From: a virus
Virus record (IMG/VR): IMGVR_UViG_3300031669_005974
Location: 1-26,629 of that record
Length of the DNA stretch: 26,629 nucleotides
Direction: 5' to 3' (one strand)
In this document: piece after piece, positions 5,042 through 25,152 of the stretch
How positions within the stretch are numbered: position 1 is the stretch's first letter
How the letters are laid out: every line of letters begins with the position of its first letter
Notes under the pieces: generated by a model
The model's input: the letters and a program-made list of their open reading frames with translations, nothing else
What the model was told of the DNA's origin: nothing
The model's database searches: none
Made by a program: the position numbers and the translations under genes

Positions 5042-5707
5042 TGGGTCTTCCCCTTTGGTTATAGGTGTTGCGGGAGCGCTGAAAGCCGTGCCGCCCGCGG
5101 TGTCAATTTCTCCAATGTCCTCGGCCGCCCACCCCAGTGATTCGGAGGTGATGACCTTGTTGGCTGTGTCCGCGTCGTATTTCTCGACCAGAAAATCACG
5201 CACCCGCTGGAACGTGTTCATGAACGTCCGCAGGACGCCTTTAAGGCGCCAATCGTTGTCCTGCGCGAACTCCACCACCAGGTCGCTTCCCTCGCCGGCG
5301 GTAAACTGCACCGGACCGAGTCCCTCCACCGCCGGGGCGGCCGCGCCCAGAAATCCGATGTGCTTCAGTGTCGTCAGGTCGGGCTGCAGGGAGATTGACA
5401 GGTTTTTGTACATGCCGGCATTCACCGCGTCGTAGAACTCCACGACCGCGTCCTTCAACTGCGCGTACAGCGTCGGCACGCCGTCGACCATGTCCTTCTT
5501 CAGGCCGGCCAGCCAGCCCCACGCCGGATCGTCGGTCTTGGGATGTCCCACAACAGCCGGCACCTGGTCGAGCCGCGACGCATTGAACTGCACGATCTTG
5601 TCGAGCTGCGCTTCGTCGAACTCTCTGGCCACGCCGGCGGAGTCGGTGTGCGTGCCTGCCCGAAAAATCGGAAACCACTGAGTTTTCTTCACGGTCTTGA
5701 TTGCCAT
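4547..5707 (-). CDS. I: Head maturation protease and scaffold (Mu gpI-like)
   Basis: A protein of 386 residues starting MAIKTVKKTQWFPIFRAGTHTD, typical of Mu gpI. The N-terminal protease domain (about 1-200) contains VVGHPKTDDPAWGW, with His55 a candidate catalytic residue, and YKNLSISLQPD, with Ser104 and Ser106 candidate nucleophiles. Residues about 220-275 form a coiled coil (LLKQENEALKAQVAEFSKN onward) typical of scaffold segments. The remainder is an Ala/Gln-rich helical tail like Mu scaffold Z. The protease is expected to cleave scaffold and itself during prohead maturation. It is the first gene of the leftward operon, with AAAAGGG upstream and a hairpin in the leader. An internal in-frame start at 5041 could yield the scaffold alone. 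Confidence 0.85.
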   Translation of the reverse strand: MAIKTVKKTQWFPIFRAGTHTDSAGVAREFDEAQLDKIVQFNASRLDQVPAVVGHPKTDDPAWGWLAGLKKDMVDGVPTLYAQLKDAVVEFYDAVNAGMYKNLSISLQPDLTTLKHIGFLGAAAPAVEGLGPVQFTAGEGSDLVVEFAQDNDWRLKGVLRTFMNTFQRVRDFLVEKYDADTANKVITSESLGWAAEDIGEIDTAGGTAFSAPATPITKGEDPMDALLKQENEALKAQVAEFSKNQARLTAVEQENATLKAATEATAKKARGAEFSAYTAGLVKDGRLLPANAPIVEGILELLHTAQPVQFSAEKTATPMDAMKELLGSYPARINFSRVADKGAAGGQPDNTNAQDIANRAVSFQKSQAEKGITVTIAQAVEAVTKA

Positions 5708-16055: not shown

Positions 16056-16739
16056 CTACCCCCCTGGCACAGCAGAGGAACGAAGATAGGCGGTAGCTAC
16101 TCCCGTCTTTGCCGGCTGGGCGGGCTGGCGCAGGCGTTCGTTTTCCGCTTCAATCTGCGATAGGCGCTTTTCACAGCCAGCCAGCAAATCAACCAGTTTA
16201 TTGTTCTTATCTCTAAGCTCGATGATTTCTTTTCGCAATTCCGCCTTGTCGTCGCTGAGACCCTGTGCCTCCAACGCCTGCAATCGCTCTTTTTCGGCTT
16301 CTTTATCCTGGGGCAATATGGGCGCGTGGTGACGGTAGGCGTTGCCAAGTATGTCGTTAAGGGTTGTGCCCGTTTCTTCGGCAATGCGCTGTAAAAATTC
16401 ATCAGCCGCGTCAATCTCACCACTGATGATTGCGGAAAGAAATTTCTCTGGTACTTCCAGGAGCTTCGATGCCTTTCCCTGCGAGCCCTTGAACACCCGA
16501 TCAAACACCATGCCGACAGTATTCCCGATGTTCGGCCGAACATCCCCGGAGAGTAACCACTGAGGCGTAACAGACAGCGCCCTTGCTATAATCAACACAA
16601 ATTCGTATGATGGCTTGGTGTCTTTTTCCCATCGCCCCCAGTTCCCCTGCGAAGTTCCAACCGCATCGGCCAGTTTCCCCTGGCTACAATCCAGGAGCTT
16701 CCTAACGAGTCGCATACGATGACTGAGATCTGGCTTCAT
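16056..16739 (-). CDS. Phage repressor (c-like) with XRE HTH, second HTH-like region and coiled coil
   Basis: A protein of 227 residues from ATG 16739; a GTG 24 bases upstream is an alternative, and neither has a good ribosome site. Residues about 1-62 form an XRE-type helix-turn-helix: MRLVRKLLDCSQGKLADAVGTSQGNWGRWE followed by PSYEFVLIIARALSVTPQWLL. Residues about 70-130 look like a second, degenerate HTH unit (GKASKLLEVPEKFLSAIISGE). Residues about 145-205 are a coiled coil (LRKEIIELRDKNNKLVDLL onward) for multimerisation. It is divergent from the early operon with operator-like repeats between them, the position of Mu c. It should repress the early promoter in the lysogen. Mu c instead has a winged Mu-type DNA-binding domain, so this is an analogue rather than a clear homologue. 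Confidence 0.8.
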   Translation of the reverse strand: MKPDLSHRMRLVRKLLDCSQGKLADAVGTSQGNWGRWEKDTKPSYEFVLIIARALSVTPQWLLSGDVRPNIGNTVGMVFDRVFKGSQGKASKLLEVPEKFLSAIISGEIDAADEFLQRIAEETGTTLNDILGNAYRHHAPILPQDKEAEKERLQALEAQGLSDDKAELRKEIIELRDKNNKLVDLLAGCEKRLSQIEAENERLRQPAQPAKTGVATAYLRSSAVPGG

Positions 16740-16743
16740 ACAG

Positions 16744-16790
16744 ATAAGTGTTGATTTCCACACGAATAAGTGTTATATTGTGTAAGTGAT
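16744..16790. promoter_or_regulatory. Operator-like direct repeats in the repressor/early gap
   Basis: ATAAGTGTT occurs at 16744-16752 and 16766-16774, a 22-base step of about two helix turns. A third, weaker copy is GTAAGTGAT at 16782-16790. The first abuts the early -35 and the second runs into the early -10, so a bound repressor or Ner-like protein would block the early promoter. Operator identity is inferred from the repeats and position. Confidence 0.5.
16751..16779 (+). promoter_or_regulatory. Early promoter
   Basis: TTGATT (16751-16756) and TATATT (16774-16779) are exactly 17 bases apart. Transcription would start near 16786 and run into the Ner-like gene at 16822 and on to the transposase. 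The promoter overlaps the ATAAGTGTT repeats, as expected for the phage early promoter under repressor control. Confidence 0.65.
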
Positions 16791-17984: not shown

Positions 17985-18312
17985 TCCCGCCGCGATAAAC
18001 AGGTTCGCAAGCGACCTGCGCTGTGAGCTGGTGCGGGCAACGGAGAAGGTACTGCATCCCGACATCAGAGATCGATACCTGTTGGCCGCGCTGGAGTTGA
18101 GCGTGTCTGACCTGCGGGCCGCAATTGAAACCGGCAACCGTAAAGACATCATTCACGCGCGAGCGGTGGAGGTGGCAGCGGTCGCTGGAAGGCTGGCGAT
18201 TGACGGGGACGACCTGTGCGCGCCTAGAGAAATTCTCGCGGACAATGGGAAAGCGTTTCTAGGCGGGCGCCAAGTGAAGGCGGCGGGAGCCGATGGAAGG
18301 ATGGGGAATTAA
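17977..18312 (+). CDS. Unknown small early protein
   Basis: A protein of 111 residues from GTG 17977, overlapping the end of the preceding gene by 8 bases. It is mostly helical, with an N-terminal basic-acidic helix region (RFASDLRCELVRATEKVLHPDI) and an Ala/Val-rich helix (HARAVEVAAVAGRLAI). There are no membrane, zinc or nucleotide-binding motifs. It ends one base before the start of the repeat gene. No function can be given. Confidence 0.5.
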   Translation: MNNPAAINRFASDLRCELVRATEKVLHPDIRDRYLLAALELSVSDLRAAIETGNRKDIIHARAVEVAAVAGRLAIDGDDLCAPREILADNGKAFLGGRQVKAAGADGRMGN

Positions 18313-18313
18313 G

Positions 18314-18871
18314 ATGTCTTATAAAGATCCCGAGAAAAAGCGCGAGTCGGCTCGTCGCCTGTACGCCGCGAATCCCGAGAAGCATCGCGAAAGAAGCCGT
18401 CGCTGGTACGCCGCGAATCCCGAGAAAAAGCGCGAGTCGGATCGTCGGCGTCGCGCCGCGAATCCCGAGAAGCATCGCGAGTCGGTTCGTCGCTGTCGCG
18501 CCGCAAATTCCGAGAAATATCGCGAGTCGGATCGTCGCCGGTACGCCGCGAATCCCGAGAAGCATCGCGAAAGTAGCCGTCGCTGGTACGCCGCGAATCC
18601 CGAGAAAAAGCGCGAGTCGGATCGTCGGCGTCGCGCCGCGAATCCCGAGAAGTATCGCGAGTTGGATCGTCGCCGGTACACCGTGAATCCCGGAAAGGGG
18701 CGCGAAAAGAGTGCTCTAGCCAAGCGATATCACACCGCGCGTGTTCCCAATTCTTTTCGTATACCATTAGCCAACCTTAAAATCGCCAATCGCCTACTCG
18801 GTGGAGAACGGTTCTCCCCCGAGATTTTTAACCGCATAGCGGAAGGAGAAACACATGTCGCGTACCAATGA
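18314..18871 (+). CDS. Repeat protein with eight 15-residue 'AANPEK-RE' units
   Basis: A protein of 185 residues from ATG 18314; GGGGA lies about 6 nt upstream. After a short lead (MSYKDPEKKRESA), eight tandem 15-residue units follow, with consensus RR-x-YAANPEK-x-RES-x. The last, degenerate unit ends near residue 133. Similar 'NPEK.RE..RRW' helical repeats occur in front of HNH or AP2-type DNA-binding domains of phage endonucleases. Here no nuclease domain follows, only about 50 residues (SFRIPLANLKIANRLLGGERF onward). The basic repeats probably form one long charged helix that could bind nucleic acid. It may be a truncated homing-endonuclease relative or an independent protein. Its stop overlaps the next gene by 17 bases. 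Confidence 0.65.
   Translation: MSYKDPEKKRESARRLYAANPEKHRERSRRWYAANPEKKRESDRRRRAANPEKHRESVRRCRAANSEKYRESDRRRYAANPEKHRESSRRWYAANPEKKRESDRRRRAANPEKYRELDRRRYTVNPGKGREKSALAKRYHTARVPNSFRIPLANLKIANRLLGGERFSPEIFNRIAEGETHVAYQ
18353..18712 (+). repeat. Eight 45-bp tandem repeats with a 180-bp higher-order duplication
   Basis: Units begin at 18353 and every 45 bases to 18668; each starts CGTCG and contains GCCGCGAATCCCGAGAA. Units 1-3 and 5-7 are nearly identical: 18361-18480 and 18541-18660 differ at two positions in 120. Four units were therefore probably duplicated together, recently. The array stays in frame with the coding gene. No spacers are present. Confidence 0.9.
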
Positions 18872-19157
18872 GTTAAGGTTGTACCGGGAGGCAAAGGCTG
18901 AAATTTTCAACCTGAACGAACTGGACCTTCTGACCGACGAAGAAAAGGCGTCCAATGCCACTCACGTCAAGGCGATTCTTGCATACAACGAAGGAAAATG
19001 CGACGGCGTAAAACTGCGGCAAATGACGGCGGCCGCAGCTGCGATCGCCAAACGCCAGCAGTCGAGATCCGCTACCGCTGTTTTAAAGTGGACCATGCTC
19101 CAGAAGACCCTCTCACTTCCAACCATTCCCGACAACAGGATAAACCCCGATGAGTGA
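18855..19157 (+). CDS. Unknown small early protein
   Basis: A protein of 100 residues; GGAAGGAG lies 7 nt before ATG 18855, and the start overlaps the previous gene. It is helical and polar, with an Ala-rich basic stretch (MTAAAAAIAKRQQSRSATA, residues about 57-75). No recognised domain. It overlaps the ParB-like gene by 8 bases (ATGAGTGA), which suggests that the two are made together and might function together. Confidence 0.55.
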   Translation: MSRTNELRLYREAKAEIFNLNELDLLTDEEKASNATHVKAILAYNEGKCDGVKLRQMTAAAAAIAKRQQSRSATAVLKWTMLQKTLSLPTIPDNRINPDE

Positions 19158-20388
19158 AATATCTCTTGTCAAGCTGACCGACATCGCCGTCGGAGATCGC
19201 ATCCGCAAGGACATGGTCGATCTGAACGCCCTTGCGCGCAGCATTCAGACCCTCGGACAGATTCAGCCGGTCACCGTGTACCGCCTGCCCGATAAGAGCC
19301 TGCACCTGGTTGACGGTGAACGCCGCATCAGGGCAACCCAGCAAAACGGCGGCAACGAAATCCTCGCGAACGTCACGGACAGTACGCCGGAAGAGCTGGC
19401 AGCCAAGAGACAAGAGGTTGAGATCGCGGCAAACAACGAGAGAGAGCCGTTTCGTATACGCGAAAAACTCGCAATTGCCAAAGAGATTATCAACAACCCG
19501 GAGCGTTTTCGCACGCGAAACGCCATATCAGACAACGAGATAGAGAAATGCAAGGAAGATGCTGAGCGTGACGGGATTCCTCTCCCGAAGGTTAGCGACA
19601 AGCAAATCGCCAAAGTACAGTATGCCGCACGAATCGCAGGCATAGGTGGGGCCACGTCATACTACCGACTTTCCCATATCGAAAAAAATGGTGTTTCGGC
19701 ACTTCTCGACGCCATTGAGTCAAAAGCCGTTGGCATCGAACAGGCATACTACATATCGAAGAATCCCAGCGAGGAGCAGCTGGAAATTCTCGAATCCATT
19801 GTTAAAGTGGTTCCACGTCCCGACAGCCCCGCCGGCCGTCCCGCCGGCTCCCCGAACAAGAAGAAGGTTAAGTCCCATGTCGGCAGTTACAAAGGCCCGA
19901 CGTTCGAGGTTGGTCTGGCCTGGCTCGGGTGGAAGCTCGACGACCCGTCCATGCCCGGGCGCTGGCCGTCAATCACGCAGCTCAAGGGGTACCCGATTCA
20001 TGAGGTGATGGCCATGGATGGCAGCGTGATTTTCATGCGCGCGGGCGCGCTCAACATCACGGACGCCGTATCGGTGCTCAACGCCTGGGGATTCCAGTTG
20101 ATGAGCGCGTTCTGGCTGGTGGATGACGCTCTGCGCAAACTGCCGGTCGAGAAATACGGTCTGTGCTCCTGGACCCAGCGCGTGCCATCGGCGCTTCTGC
20201 TGGCAACCGCAGGTGAATACCGGCAAGGGCTCAAAATCGAAAACCGCATCGAGCCATATCTCAGCGGCAAGATGCCGGACGCGGTATACCGGATGATTGA
20301 GGCGATTCTCCCGAAGCACCCGAAGGTCGAGCTGTTCTGCCAGGGAGAGCCGCGCAAGAGATGGCACAAGTGGCTGGCGGTGGACTAA
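19150..20388 (+). CDS. ParB-like protein fused to a degenerate MT-A70 methyltransferase domain
   Basis: A protein of 412 residues. ATG 19150 follows AGGA by about 10 nt. Residues 1-100 are a ParB/Srx-type domain with LVDGERRIRA at 53-62, the ParB box II-like motif. Residues about 145-225 are helical and HTH-like (SDKQIAKVQYAARIAGIGG). A Pro/Lys linker follows (about 234-252). Residues about 257-412 align in pattern with MT-A70 adenine methyltransferases: PSITQLKGYPIHEVM, GSVIFMRAGALNITDAVSVLNAWGFQ, WTQRVPSALLLATAGEY, and a KMPDAVYRMIEAILP...VELFCQGEPRKRWHKW end. The catalytic DPPW, expected after FEVGLA, is replaced by WLGW, so methyl transfer is doubtful. It may act as a DNA-binding adaptor or recognise methylated or unmethylated DNA. 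Confidence 0.8.
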   Translation: MSEISLVKLTDIAVGDRIRKDMVDLNALARSIQTLGQIQPVTVYRLPDKSLHLVDGERRIRATQQNGGNEILANVTDSTPEELAAKRQEVEIAANNEREPFRIREKLAIAKEIINNPERFRTRNAISDNEIEKCKEDAERDGIPLPKVSDKQIAKVQYAARIAGIGGATSYYRLSHIEKNGVSALLDAIESKAVGIEQAYYISKNPSEEQLEILESIVKVVPRPDSPAGRPAGSPNKKKVKSHVGSYKGPTFEVGLAWLGWKLDDPSMPGRWPSITQLKGYPIHEVMAMDGSVIFMRAGALNITDAVSVLNAWGFQLMSAFWLVDDALRKLPVEKYGLCSWTQRVPSALLLATAGEYRQGLKIENRIEPYLSGKMPDAVYRMIEAILPKHPKVELFCQGEPRKRWHKWLAVD

Positions 20389-20400
20389 CCGGAGGGCAAT

Positions 20401-20643
20401 ATGGTCTGCGCTGAACCATCACAGAAAGAAATTCTGCTTCAGCACCTGCGCGCGCACGGGAGCATCACGAAGCTCCAGGCGCTGCAGCAGTACGGAATCA
20501 TGAACACCGGCGGGCGGATGTTCGAGCTGCACGAAGAAGGACATCCGGTTTCATCGCGGAGGGTGGTGACGACAAGCGGCAAGCGGGTTGCGGAGTATTA
20601 CCTGGTGAATTTCGACGCGAACGGACAGGGGTCTTTATGGTAG
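20401..20643 (+). CDS. HTH_39-type DNA-binding protein
   Basis: A protein of 80 residues; GGAGGG lies 5 nt before ATG 20401. It has a winged-helix pattern: SQKEILLQHLRAHGSITKLQALQQYGI, then GGRMFELHEEGHPVSSRRVVTTSGKRVAEYYL. This is the small HTH_39 family found in many phages. Such proteins are thought to be regulators or terminase-like DNA-binding factors. It lies immediately before the transposase and overlaps its start by 7 bases, so it may tune transposase expression or bind phage ends. The target is unknown. Confidence 0.75.
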   Translation: MVCAEPSQKEILLQHLRAHGSITKLQALQQYGIMNTGGRMFELHEEGHPVSSRRVVTTSGKRVAEYYLVNFDANGQGSLW

Positions 20644-22607
20644 AAGTGGCACGGTGGATTGCGGCTGAGGAAGTGGCACGGATTACGGGATGGTCAATGA
20701 GAACCATACGCCGGCGCGGCGCGTCCGGCGAGCTGCCCCGCGCCAGGGACGCCTGCGGGCACTTCCAGTATTGCTCCGCAACCGCACTGTCAATCGCCGA
20801 AGCGAATACCGCGCCCACCGGCCGCGAGGCGGATATCTCCGCCGATGCCGAGGCGTATGCCAACGCGCCCTCATACGCCCGCAAACACGCGGACCGATAC
20901 ACGGCGCTCATGACTGTGTTTCAGGGGCTCAACGGCAGGGAGCTGACGGCGCGTATTGAGCAGTGGAACAAGGACCATCCGGATGATACCACCAGCGTGT
21001 CCAGCCTTCTCGCGGCCCGGAAAGCGTTCGCCGAGGGCGGTATCGCCGCCCTGCTGTCGCGGTACGGCACCCGCTCCGGCGCCACCATCGTGCCGGACAT
21101 ATATATGGAATACTTCAAAGGGCTGTACCTGAAGGAAGGCTCCCCGGGCGCCATGAGCTGCTGGCGCTGCACCATGGGCTGGGCAATCCAGCGGGACCCG
21201 GCGGTCACCCCCGATTCATTCCCCAGCTACGCATCGTTCATCCGCCGCCTGCGGGCGGATCTGCTGCCCGAAAGCATCTATCGCGCGCGCCGCGGCGCGA
21301 AAGCCTGGAACCGTAAATACGCCTCATACATCCGCCGCGACTACAGCAACGTGCTGGCCGGCCAGGTGTGGGTGAGTGACCATGCGCAGATCGATATCGC
21401 CTGTGCGCTTCCCGACGGTAAATACTGTTTCCCCTGGGTTACCGTATGGCGTGATTTCAAATCCGGGAAATGGCTCGGGTGGGAGCTGCGCGAGATCGCG
21501 CCATCGAGTGACCCGATCTTCTCGGCGTTCTACCGGGCCGCGTCGATATATGGCGTTTGCAGCACCCTTATTCTTGACAATGGAAAAGACTACCGCTGCA
21601 AGGATTTCGCCGGCGGACGGCGGAAGATACGCGTTGAAGTGGACCAGCAGAAGGTGCGATCTCTCACCGCCGGTCTGAACATCGAGACCGTGTTTGCGTG
21701 GCCGTATAACGCCCAGAGTAAACCAATTGAACGCGATTTTCTCCGCAACAAGGAATGGCTCTCGAAACATGCGGTCGGGTATCGCGGCGGGAACGTCGTC
21801 GAACGGCCGGAGTCGCTCAACAAGCGGATCGGCGAGAATGCAATCGAGACGCTTGACGAACTGCGCGAACTGTTCGATGTGTTCGTGACCGAAGTAATCA
21901 ACCGCAGCGTTGTCGGCTCAGGTTACCGCGCCGGAAATTGCCCGGACCAGATATGGGACGACGAGGCGCAGACCGCCGCCGACAACGGATTGCTGCGGTC
22001 GGTGACTCGTGATGCGCTGAAGCTGTTCTGCGCCCGGGCATCCGGGACCATGACGGTCGGCCGCAACGGCGTGCGTGATGCGGACCTGGGCTGCGACTAC
22101 TGGGCGGATTGGATGTTCGCGCACAAGGGCCGCAAGGTTTACATGCGCCGGGACCCCAAGCAGCACGAATCCGCATGGGTATTCGACACCGCGACGGATG
22201 ACTTTCTCGGGGCGGCCGACCTGGTGCAGGCAGTGCCGGCACTCGCCCGCACCGATATCGAGCGCGGGCAGCTCCAGGAGGCAATACGCCTGAAGCGTCG
22301 CGCGGGCAAGATCGCGCGGGTGTATGCGCGCGCGGACGTAAACCCGTCGCTGCGTGAGAAAGTGGCCAACCTGGTCACGGTCACCCGCGCCATCAACGAG
22401 TCCCGCGGGTACACTCCCGCGGACCAGCCTGCCGTGCGCCCGACGGTGATACTCACGGACATGGATCGCGTGGTCGCGCAGGAAGCAGCAATGGCCGGGC
22501 GCGGAAAATCAATCGCGCGAAAACTGGGAATTTCGGACATCAGTTCCGAGTCAAATACAATCGATCCACTCGCGGCCTATTACCCGATAAAGGCCGCAAG
22601 CGCATAG
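20637..22607 (+). CDS. A: MuA-type DDE transposase
   Basis: A protein of 656 residues, close to Mu A (663). ATG 20637 overlaps the preceding stop. The N-terminus (WIAAEEVARITGWSMRTIRRRG) is the Mu-type HTH that binds enhancer or end sites. The catalytic triad is D248 (WVSDHAQID), D314 (LILDNGKDY) and E365 (AQSKPIERDF); spacings of 66 and 51 are like Mu D269-D336-E392. A Mu-C-type beta-barrel follows (about 480-540, including KVYMRRDPKQH). The last about 80 residues form the basic helical tail that in Mu contacts MuB and ClpX (KLGISDISSESNTID). It catalyses end pairing, nicking and strand transfer for integration and replicative transposition. It is the central early gene and is coupled to B downstream. 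Confidence 0.96.
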   Translation: MVEVARWIAAEEVARITGWSMRTIRRRGASGELPRARDACGHFQYCSATALSIAEANTAPTGREADISADAEAYANAPSYARKHADRYTALMTVFQGLNGRELTARIEQWNKDHPDDTTSVSSLLAARKAFAEGGIAALLSRYGTRSGATIVPDIYMEYFKGLYLKEGSPGAMSCWRCTMGWAIQRDPAVTPDSFPSYASFIRRLRADLLPESIYRARRGAKAWNRKYASYIRRDYSNVLAGQVWVSDHAQIDIACALPDGKYCFPWVTVWRDFKSGKWLGWELREIAPSSDPIFSAFYRAASIYGVCSTLILDNGKDYRCKDFAGGRRKIRVEVDQQKVRSLTAGLNIETVFAWPYNAQSKPIERDFLRNKEWLSKHAVGYRGGNVVERPESLNKRIGENAIETLDELRELFDVFVTEVINRSVVGSGYRAGNCPDQIWDDEAQTAADNGLLRSVTRDALKLFCARASGTMTVGRNGVRDADLGCDYWADWMFAHKGRKVYMRRDPKQHESAWVFDTATDDFLGAADLVQAVPALARTDIERGQLQEAIRLKRRAGKIARVYARADVNPSLREKVANLVTVTRAINESRGYTPADQPAVRPTVILTDMDRVVAQEAAMAGRGKSIARKLGISDISSESNTIDPLAAYYPIKAASA

Positions 22608-22635: not shown

Positions 22636-23538
22636 ATGTCGCCCAACATCAACCTTCATGAAGCCCTTGCGGAGCACCTGCGCAAGACCGGCAACAGCAT
22701 GGCGGCCGCCGCCCGCCAGATTGGATTCTCTTCGACCGTCTTGTCTCTCTGGGCAAGCGGGAAGTACAAGGGAAATGTTACACACGTAGACGAATCCGTG
22801 TTTGCGTTCCTGCAGCGCCAGGAAGAAATCTCGTCGCTTAAAAAAGTCGACCGCAAATTTGTTGAGATCACAGCCGCGAAGCGGATATTCGGGCTGGTAC
22901 GGCTGGCGCATCTGCGCAGCAAAATGTGTGTACTCACCGGACGCGCCGGCAGCGGCAAGACCGTGACCCTGCAGGAGTACACCAAGCATAATCCGAGCAC
23001 CATCCTGATTGAGGCGGATTCACTCCACACCAAGGACGCCTTGCTGCGCGAGATTCACAGGCGCCTGGGATTCACCGGCCGGGGAGTGCTGCGCCATGTG
23101 ATGGACGATATCGTTGACAAGCTGCTGGGCAGCGACCGCCTGCTGATAATTGACGAAGCGGACCAGCTTTCCGTATATGCCCTGGAAGTCATTCGCGGCA
23201 TCCACGACAAGGCCCATATCGGCGTGGTGCTGGCCGGGCTGCCGAGGCTTATTGAGAACATCCGTGGCCTGCGTGGCGAGCTGGAGCAGATATACAGCCG
23301 CGTGGTCCAGCACCTGCGCCTGGACGACAACCTGTCCGTCGAAGACGCCGGGCTTATCTGCCGCGCGTACCTGGACAGCGGGGTAAACGGCACGGTAAAG
23401 ACATTTCATTCATGCGCTCGCGGCAACGCCCGCATGCTGACAAACCTAATCGGCACTACGGTTGACTACTGCGAGCACCAGCATGTCGCCCTGTCGAAAG
23501 ACGTTGTTTCCGAAATTTCCAAAACAATGCTTGTGTGA
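22636..23538 (+). CDS. B: MuB-type AAA+ target-selection ATPase
   Basis: A protein of 300 residues (Mu B is 312); AAAGGAGAAGCG precedes ATG 22636. The N-terminal about 60 residues are an HTH (LRKTGNSMAAAARQIGFSSTVLSLWASGKY). The ATPase has Walker A GRAGSGKT at 102-109 and Walker B LLIIDEAD at 169-176, with a sensor-like VVLAGLPRL near 205. The C-terminal 60 residues form the helical DNA-binding domain (NARMLTNLIGTTVDYCEH). MuB polymerises on DNA with ATP, delivers target DNA to the transposase and gives target immunity. It lies 28 bases after A. Confidence 0.95.
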   Translation: MSPNINLHEALAEHLRKTGNSMAAAARQIGFSSTVLSLWASGKYKGNVTHVDESVFAFLQRQEEISSLKKVDRKFVEITAAKRIFGLVRLAHLRSKMCVLTGRAGSGKTVTLQEYTKHNPSTILIEADSLHTKDALLREIHRRLGFTGRGVLRHVMDDIVDKLLGSDRLLIIDEADQLSVYALEVIRGIHDKAHIGVVLAGLPRLIENIRGLRGELEQIYSRVVQHLRLDDNLSVEDAGLICRAYLDSGVNGTVKTFHSCARGNARMLTNLIGTTVDYCEHQHVALSKDVVSEISKTMLV

Positions 23539-24585: not shown

Positions 24586-24743
24586 CCCTGATAATTGCAT
24601 GGCTGACATTTGCAGCCGGCCTGACGATCGGCATCCTGCTGATGCTGGCCCTTGTCTGGAGTTACGGGAGACCGTGGCATGACGACATTAAACGAGAACG
24701 TAGCAAAACATACGAATTCAAAGCTCATCGAGCTTTTAGATGA
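24582..24743 (+). CDS. Small single-pass membrane protein
   Basis: A protein of 53 residues from TTG 24582, chosen because GAGGTGG lies 5-6 nt upstream and the codon overlaps the previous stop (ATTGA). The first 28 residues are one hydrophobic helix (LIIAWLTFAAGLTIGILLMLALVWSY), followed by a basic cytoplasmic tail (DIKRERSKTYEFKAHRAFR). The 3' part overlaps the next gene by 65 bases in another frame. It could be a holin-like or kil-like host-effect protein. Real translation is plausible but unproven. Confidence 0.45.
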   Translation: MTLIIAWLTFAAGLTIGILLMLALVWSYGRPWHDDIKRERSKTYEFKAHRAFR

Positions 24744-25152
24744 GGTTGAAGCGCTGAAGCGCCAACTCACTGAGGCTGAGAATCGGTACCAGTATGAGTT
24801 GAGCCGCGAGCGGCGGCCCTTGGTGTACCTGGCCTGCCCGTATACGCATCCGGACGGGAGCATGCGCCAGCAGCGCTACCTGGCGGCAACCAGGGCGGCC
24901 GTGGTCCTCACGCAGAAAGGGCTGTTCGTGTTCTCTCCCATAACCCACTCGCATCCGATGGCGCAGTGCAGCGAGCTGCCGGGCACCTGGGAATTTTGGA
25001 GGGATATCGACAGGGCATTCATCAGTTGCTGCCACACCATGTATGTGTTGCGGCTGGAGGGTTGGGAGGACTCCCGCGGGGTCGCCGAGGAGGTGGCGAT
25101 CGCAGGCGGATTCGGCATCAAGGTGGATTATATAGACGAGGTGGTTTGCTGA
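24679..25152 (+). CDS. DUF1937 protein (deoxyribosyltransferase-like fold)
   Basis: A protein of 157 residues from ATG 24679 with GGGAG about 8 nt upstream; a TTG nine codons earlier is less likely. An N-terminal coiled coil (about 10-45) precedes the DUF1937 domain: LVYLACPYTHPDG, RYLAATRAAVVLTQKGLFVFSPITHSHPMAQ, TWEFWRDIDRAFISCC, and ESRGVAEEVAIA-like DSRGVAEEVAIAGG near residue 135. The fold resembles nucleoside 2-deoxyribosyltransferases, where an equivalent Glu is catalytic. A role in nucleotide salvage or modified-base metabolism is inferred, and no substrate is known. It is followed by a strong hairpin. Confidence 0.78.
   Translation: MTTLNENVAKHTNSKLIELLDEVEALKRQLTEAENRYQYELSRERRPLVYLACPYTHPDGSMRQQRYLAATRAAVVLTQKGLFVFSPITHSHPMAQCSELPGTWEFWRDIDRAFISCCHTMYVLRLEGWEDSRGVAEEVAIAGGFGIKVDYIDEVVC

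Follow-up and report, generated by a model that had tools for sequence, protein, structure and literature searches.

Introduction

What does an MT-A70 domain contribute to a phage protein once its catalytic motif has been replaced? The question is raised by a gene in IMG/VR record IMGVR_UViG_3300031669_005974, of which positions 1 to 26,629 (26,629 nucleotides, hereafter the window) were analyzed. A preliminary description of this DNA had proposed that the gene joins a ParB domain to an MT-A70 domain with WLGW in place of DPPW, that the ParB part may bind or hydrolyze CTP, and that the dead methylase could act as a reader on phage DNA. We examine these proposals by means of profile searches, structure prediction and comparison with related phage proteins. 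We will argue that the fusion protein probably works by binding and not by methylating.

Results

Early region

Judged by Pfam and PHROG gene calls, the window comes from a Mu-like transposable phage, of which it is a fragment (Table 1). The neighbours of the fusion gene (repressor, MuA, MuB, gp16-like protein and Gam) bear out its earlier placement in the early region of such a phage, and the fragment also encodes transcription regulators. The start of the fusion gene overlaps the end of the preceding gene by 8 bases, and the HTH_39 gene that follows overlaps the start of MuA.

Table 1. Positions of the fusion protein, its parts and its neighbours in the window.
Feature	Residues	Position	Strand	Basis or remark
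Repressor gene		16056-16763	leftward	
100-aa protein		18855..19157	+	upstream of fusion gene; no convincing family match (Pfam, PHROG)
ParB-HTH-pseudoMT-A70 fusion protein, 412 aa	1-412	19150..20388	+	open frame; Pfam, PHROG and fold matches
ParB N-domain (nucleotide-binding fold)	1-102	19150..19455	+	Pfam, Noc alignment, pLDDT
GERR P-motif	56-59	19315-19326	+	alignment to Noc
Helical ParB M-domain-like (HTH) region	103-220	19456..19809	+	seven predicted helices
Low-confidence linker	221-250	19810..19899	+	pLDDT <50 from residue 225
Degenerate MT-A70 domain	251-412	19900..20385	+	fold match, conserved-position tally
WLGW at DPPW position	258-261	19921..19932	+	alignments including 39 related MT-A70 domains
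LSGKMP where relatives have HSxKP	371-376	20260..20277	+	short deletion precedes
RWHKWLAVD end	404-412	20359..20385	+	C-terminal G-N-Q/E absent
Winged-helix protein, 80 aa		20401..20643	+	HTH_39 (Pfam E 1.4e-13); PHROG 4973 (E 5.1e-15)
Mu-type transposase A (MuA)		20637..22607	+	PHROG 310, E 5.4e-70
MuB-like ATPase		22636-23538		PHROG 296, E 3.5e-65
gp16-like protein				further gene of the fragment
Gam				further gene of the fragment; PHROG 491
Late activator				further gene of the fragment

Some other elements of the window can be mentioned here. Two 16-nt direct repeats at the repressor start (16737-16774; CATACAGATAAGTGTT / CACACGAATAAGTGTT) are possible operators, and a 27-bp near-perfect dyad (18797-18823), directly ahead of the genes that run up to the fusion gene, is a putative terminator or binding site. 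None of the repeats listed in the window is assignable as a parS-like target of the ParB part. Nine tandem 45-nt repeats (18308-18712) within an ORF at 18293-18871 code for a charged 15-residue unit, RR-Y-AANPEK-RES; this ORF has a weak match to PHROG 17714, a family of unknown function. A nucleoside 2-deoxyribosyltransferase-like gene (24652-25152; PHROG 355, E 7.9e-20) follows Gam.

The ParB part

The N-terminal part matches ParB_N (PF02195) over residues 20-82 with an E-value of 1.1e-9, above the cut-off of that profile, while the cut-off of the TIGR00180 family is missed (44.8 bits vs 58.45). In the full-length AlphaFold2 model, built on an alignment of 39 sequences, the ParB N-domain (pLDDT about 88-97) and the helical M-domain (mostly 88-97, weaker near residues 121-130) are predicted with confidence, the pLDDT means of blocks being mostly 87-97. 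Confidence is low over residues 225-270, and a core resembling a methyltransferase comes next. A Foldseek search of the PDB with this model matches both Noc/ParB (best E 3.2e-8) and METTL3, and the M-domains of Noc/ParB structures align across residues 103-220. The C-terminal dimerization domain of ParB is absent, the MT-A70 domain being found there instead in the PDB fold matches.

The suggestion that this part binds or hydrolyzes CTP fares differently in its two halves. The GERR motif is present, and with it the equivalent of B. subtilis E78 (E57). The Glu-Asn of the third ParB motif corresponds, in the pairwise alignment with Noc, to Ala93-Asn94, with Ala93 opposite the second hydrolysis glutamate, E111 in B. 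subtilis. Since the B. subtilis ParB variants E78Q and E111Q lose CTP hydrolysis and retain binding and gate closure (PMC8494293), nucleotide binding by the fusion protein appears plausible from these residues and hydrolysis doubtful. The ParB-CTPase-fold survey (PNAS 2025, PMC12704722) gives no reliable rule for the nucleotide and has methyltransferase fusions binding ATP, and the identity of the nucleotide is therefore not predictable on that basis.

The MT-A70 domain

Pfam MT-A70 (PF05063) matches residues 276-407 with an E-value of 1.4e-4, slightly under its cut-off (22.3 bits vs 23.9), and covers positions 29-168 of the 172 in the profile, leaving the DPPW-bearing part unmatched. PHROG 359 (DNA methyltransferase) also matches (E 1.9e-12), and PADLOC returns only a generic type II methyltransferase (E 4.7e-11). 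When the C-terminal domain is modelled alone (pTM 0.79), its best PDB match is METTL3 (Foldseek E 1.3e-10, TM about 0.7), in agreement with the MT-A70 scaffold recognized earlier from the sequence. It is important to point out that the loops around the lost pocket have low model confidence, which we count against the explanation preferred below.

The replacement of DPPW by WLGW is confirmed by the alignment with 39 other phage MT-A70 domains, in which W258-L259-G260-W261 sits on D-P-P-W. Neither the rest of the protein nor the two alternative forward reading frames of this stretch contain a D/N/S-P-P-W/Y/F motif. A misplaced motif was thus rejected, and a single frameshift does not explain the loss either, because the other forward frames do not contain the motif.

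To see how far the damage extends, we took the columns with at least 85% conservation among the other 39 domains of this 40-sequence alignment, 38 in number, a tally that is mildly biased in that the columns were picked from the same 39 sequences; the fusion protein keeps 16 of the 38, compared to 33 to 38 (mean 36.9) in the others. The lost positions that are invariant in the other 39 are D258, P259, W297, K326, E347, H372, S373, K375, R398, G404 and the Gly after W408, and P260, conserved in 97% of them, is lost as well. The replacements include D258W, P259L, P260G, K326D, E347S, H372S and S373G, and the terminal G is missing. Kept are W261, F295, W313-G314-F315, L350, G355, P376, I383, P391, E394, L395, F396, W405 and W408. 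As judged from the alignment, the damage is wider than DPPW, with K326, E347, HSxK and the C-terminal G-N-Q/E all replaced or lost. In METTL3, it is the DPPW loop that holds the target adenine, and the SAM ribose is bound by Asn549 and Gln550 (PMC5023411); both elements are absent from the fusion protein. The losses are concentrated on catalytic and SAM-contact residues and those of the hydrophobic core stay, a pattern that fits a retained scaffold.

Related fusions

Scans of IMG/VR return many fusions with the order ParB-like, HTH, MT-A70, colinear with the fusion protein (in one scan with such a fusion, the best 80 of 488 relatives were kept). Whether phage homologues share the loss of DPPW had been left as a check: among 81 other distinct full-length IMG/VR fusions, a survey biased by search patterns and ranking that favoured canonical members, the Asp is kept in every one and DPPW in 60. 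The remaining 21 have DPPT (6), DPAT (5), DAPW (3), DPCW (2), or, once each, DPAS, DPAW, DCPW, DPEW and DDEW, and all of them retain HSxKP and the C-terminal WG. Erosion as deep as that described above is seen in none of the 81. Standalone MT-A70 ORFs have D-P/C-P/A/N-W/Y/F/H/N in 90 of 95 cases; for four of the remaining five, DPPW or DPAW lies a short way upstream or in a different frame, and the last one begins at the end of its contig.

Twelve distinct fusions with DPPT, DPAT or DPAS (L061, L043, L271-L274, L276, L277, L279, L299, L301 and L316) are without the stacking Trp and keep the other motifs; this set may mark a different substrate.

PHROG 21315 covers such fusions across nearly their full length (L275, E 3.8e-108; L112, E 8e-129; and L018). 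They have the same domain order as the fusion protein and a full-length colinear alignment, whereas the match of this family to the fusion protein itself is limited to residues 290-408 (E 1.1e-9). Their N-domain is also mostly of the DGRNR type, in contrast to GERR here, which answers the earlier question of whether homologues keep the ParB CTP motif. The ParB-HTH-MT-A70 layout is thus already catalogued, in a family of unknown function, and what sets the fusion protein apart is the full loss of its active site.

Beside one DPPW-intact fusion (L018), positions 5147-5341 encode a homologue of the HTH_39 neighbour (37% identity, PHROG 4973). A conserved pairing of the two genes was considered and rejected, this being the only case among the 81 fusion loci and its sequence being already in the search model. 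Searches of the DNA of the fusion loci gave no match to MuA, MuB, the gp16-like protein or Gam of the Mu-like fragment, and a transposable-phage context as a rule for such fusions is therefore not supported.

Origin of the gene

No orthologue of the fusion protein came up when IMG/VR and the GTDB genome collection were scanned for exact peptides, and plasmids gave none either. INPHARED phages gave single-domain matches only, and in 386 genomes from the phylum of a Gastranaerophilales transposase relative nearly all matches were in the ParB part, with none full-length. The closest relatives of the transposase (40-42% identity) are found in Candidatus Gastranaerophilales MAGs (L129, L207) and IMG/VR contigs (L209-L211). 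Six of the closest relatives, checked through their genomes or records, are without the fusion gene, which is therefore accessory in the lineage and not a constant of the early region. In the prophage-like loci of the two MAGs (L129, 2-5610; L207, 3142-9791), two pairs of Mu-type transposase and ATPase genes lie in tandem.

The two halves of the protein were also scored separately. The N-half scores about 82-83 bits with a phage ParB-only model, for which the sequences were gathered using the fusion protein as query, vs 30 with fusion N-halves, and the C-half scores 54 bits with standalone MT-A70 vs 45 with fusions. An independent fusion event, as opposed to a divergent member of PHROG 21315, is only suggested by these scores, since some other fusions score as high as 70 bits with the ParB-only model. 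GC3 is about 0.52 over residues 100-220 and about 0.8 after residue 223, where the best split is found (z 4.5, 0 of 500 shuffles), and this shift suggests a mosaic gene.

Discussion

We now turn to what the protein may do. The explanation we prefer, to which we give an even chance, is a pseudo-methyltransferase on a DNA-binding ParB core, that is, an early, possibly NTP-gated phage protein whose MT-A70 part is a non-catalytic module. Like ParB and Noc, the protein would use its ParB N-domain and helical M-domain to attach to a DNA site and probably also to bind a nucleotide. Occupying the place of the ParB dimerization domain, the MT-A70 domain would neither bind SAM nor methylate; it would serve self-dimerization, docking of a partner, or an additional nucleic-acid contact. 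A role as a reader, of phage DNA as proposed earlier or of methylated DNA, is conceivable but speculative. Produced early, directly ahead of the transposase genes, the protein would, through its occupancy of phage DNA, most likely influence early transcription or transposition. The domains, the fold prediction, the residue losses and the location are observed here; binding of DNA and nucleotide, dimerization, partner, ligand and biological role are what we infer. In favour of it we count the domain and fold matches, the conserved GERR, the known non-catalytic MT-A70 subunits and the intact 412-residue frame without stops. Against it, no orthologue was found in the collections searched, so that selection on the dead domain is not measurable, the record holds no active MT-A70 partner, and the closest transposase relatives are without the gene.

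The main rival is a decaying relic. In that case the ancestor would have been an active ParB-MT-A70 methylase whose methylation became useless, and the C-terminal domain now drifts while the ParB part may still work. The loss of 22 of the 38 conserved positions, the truncated C-terminus and the short deletion that precedes HSxKP are all consistent with decay, as are the status of the protein as a singleton without a conserved orthologue and the milder motif changes in about a quarter of the other fusions. The domain is, however, free of stops and frameshifts and keeps its core residues selectively, and its GC3 (0.80) is as high as that of the transposase gene (0.76). On balance, we consider the relic less likely than the pseudo-methyltransferase, though a real possibility.

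A more elaborate version of the pseudo-methyltransferase reading, which we consider improbable, is that a METTL14-like protein has evolved in the phage as a nucleotide-gated ParB clamp, in which the eroded MT-A70 domain, having replaced the dimerization domain, would recognize DNA or its methylation state and so control Mu-type transposition or early transcription.

Another option is a two-part methyltransferase, with the dead subunit paired to an active MT-A70 protein from the host or from a missing part of the phage and the ParB part targeting the pair. Known MT-A70 pseudoenzymes do pair in this way (METTL3-METTL14, MTA1-MTA9), and phages often carry standalone MT-A70 genes. However, a PF05063 search of the 26.6-kb record, which is possibly partial, brings up no further MT-A70, and such an enzyme seems to us distinctly unlikely. 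An enzyme that is still active, by way of an unusual active site or with a different cofactor, is highly improbable: otherwise intact DPPT, DPAT, DAPW and DPCW fusions are common, but all the variants keep the Asp, HSxKP and the C-terminal WG, every one of which the fusion protein has lost.

Comparison with known systems

Returning to the non-catalytic module on a ParB core, eroded MT-A70 pseudo-methyltransferase subunits are known in the eukaryotic m6A and 6mA writers. METTL14 has EPPL for DPPW, with Pro/Thr replacing the Asn/Gln that bind the ribose (PMC5023411), and MTA9 has NALW and no bound SAM (PMC9852454). As in the fusion protein, DPPW is eroded and the SAM pocket lost on an MT-A70 fold; unlike it, both are eukaryotic and work with an active partner, while the fusion protein has a ParB part fused to it and no partner in the record. 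We would take the two as a functional precedent and not as kin, the fusion protein having been compared only with phage MT-A70 profiles. Among prokaryotic systems, the part of the survey by Kaljevic et al. used here (PNAS 2025, PMC12704722) describes the ParB-CTPase fold joined to MT-A70, enriched in archaea, and to other methyltransferases in phages; an active-site-dead methyltransferase fusion is not mentioned in that part. Phage ParB-like proteins (PHROG 12047; Vibrio phage eugene 12A10, Pseudomonas phage phiAH14a) share the ParB and HTH regions at about 24-31% identity and are without an MT-A70 domain. If the preferred explanation is true, this phage ParB-switch case would show that prokaryotes, too, can convert the MT-A70 fold into a nucleic-acid module without catalysis, and it would make the contribution of MT-A70 in the many phage ParB-MT-A70 fusions testable.
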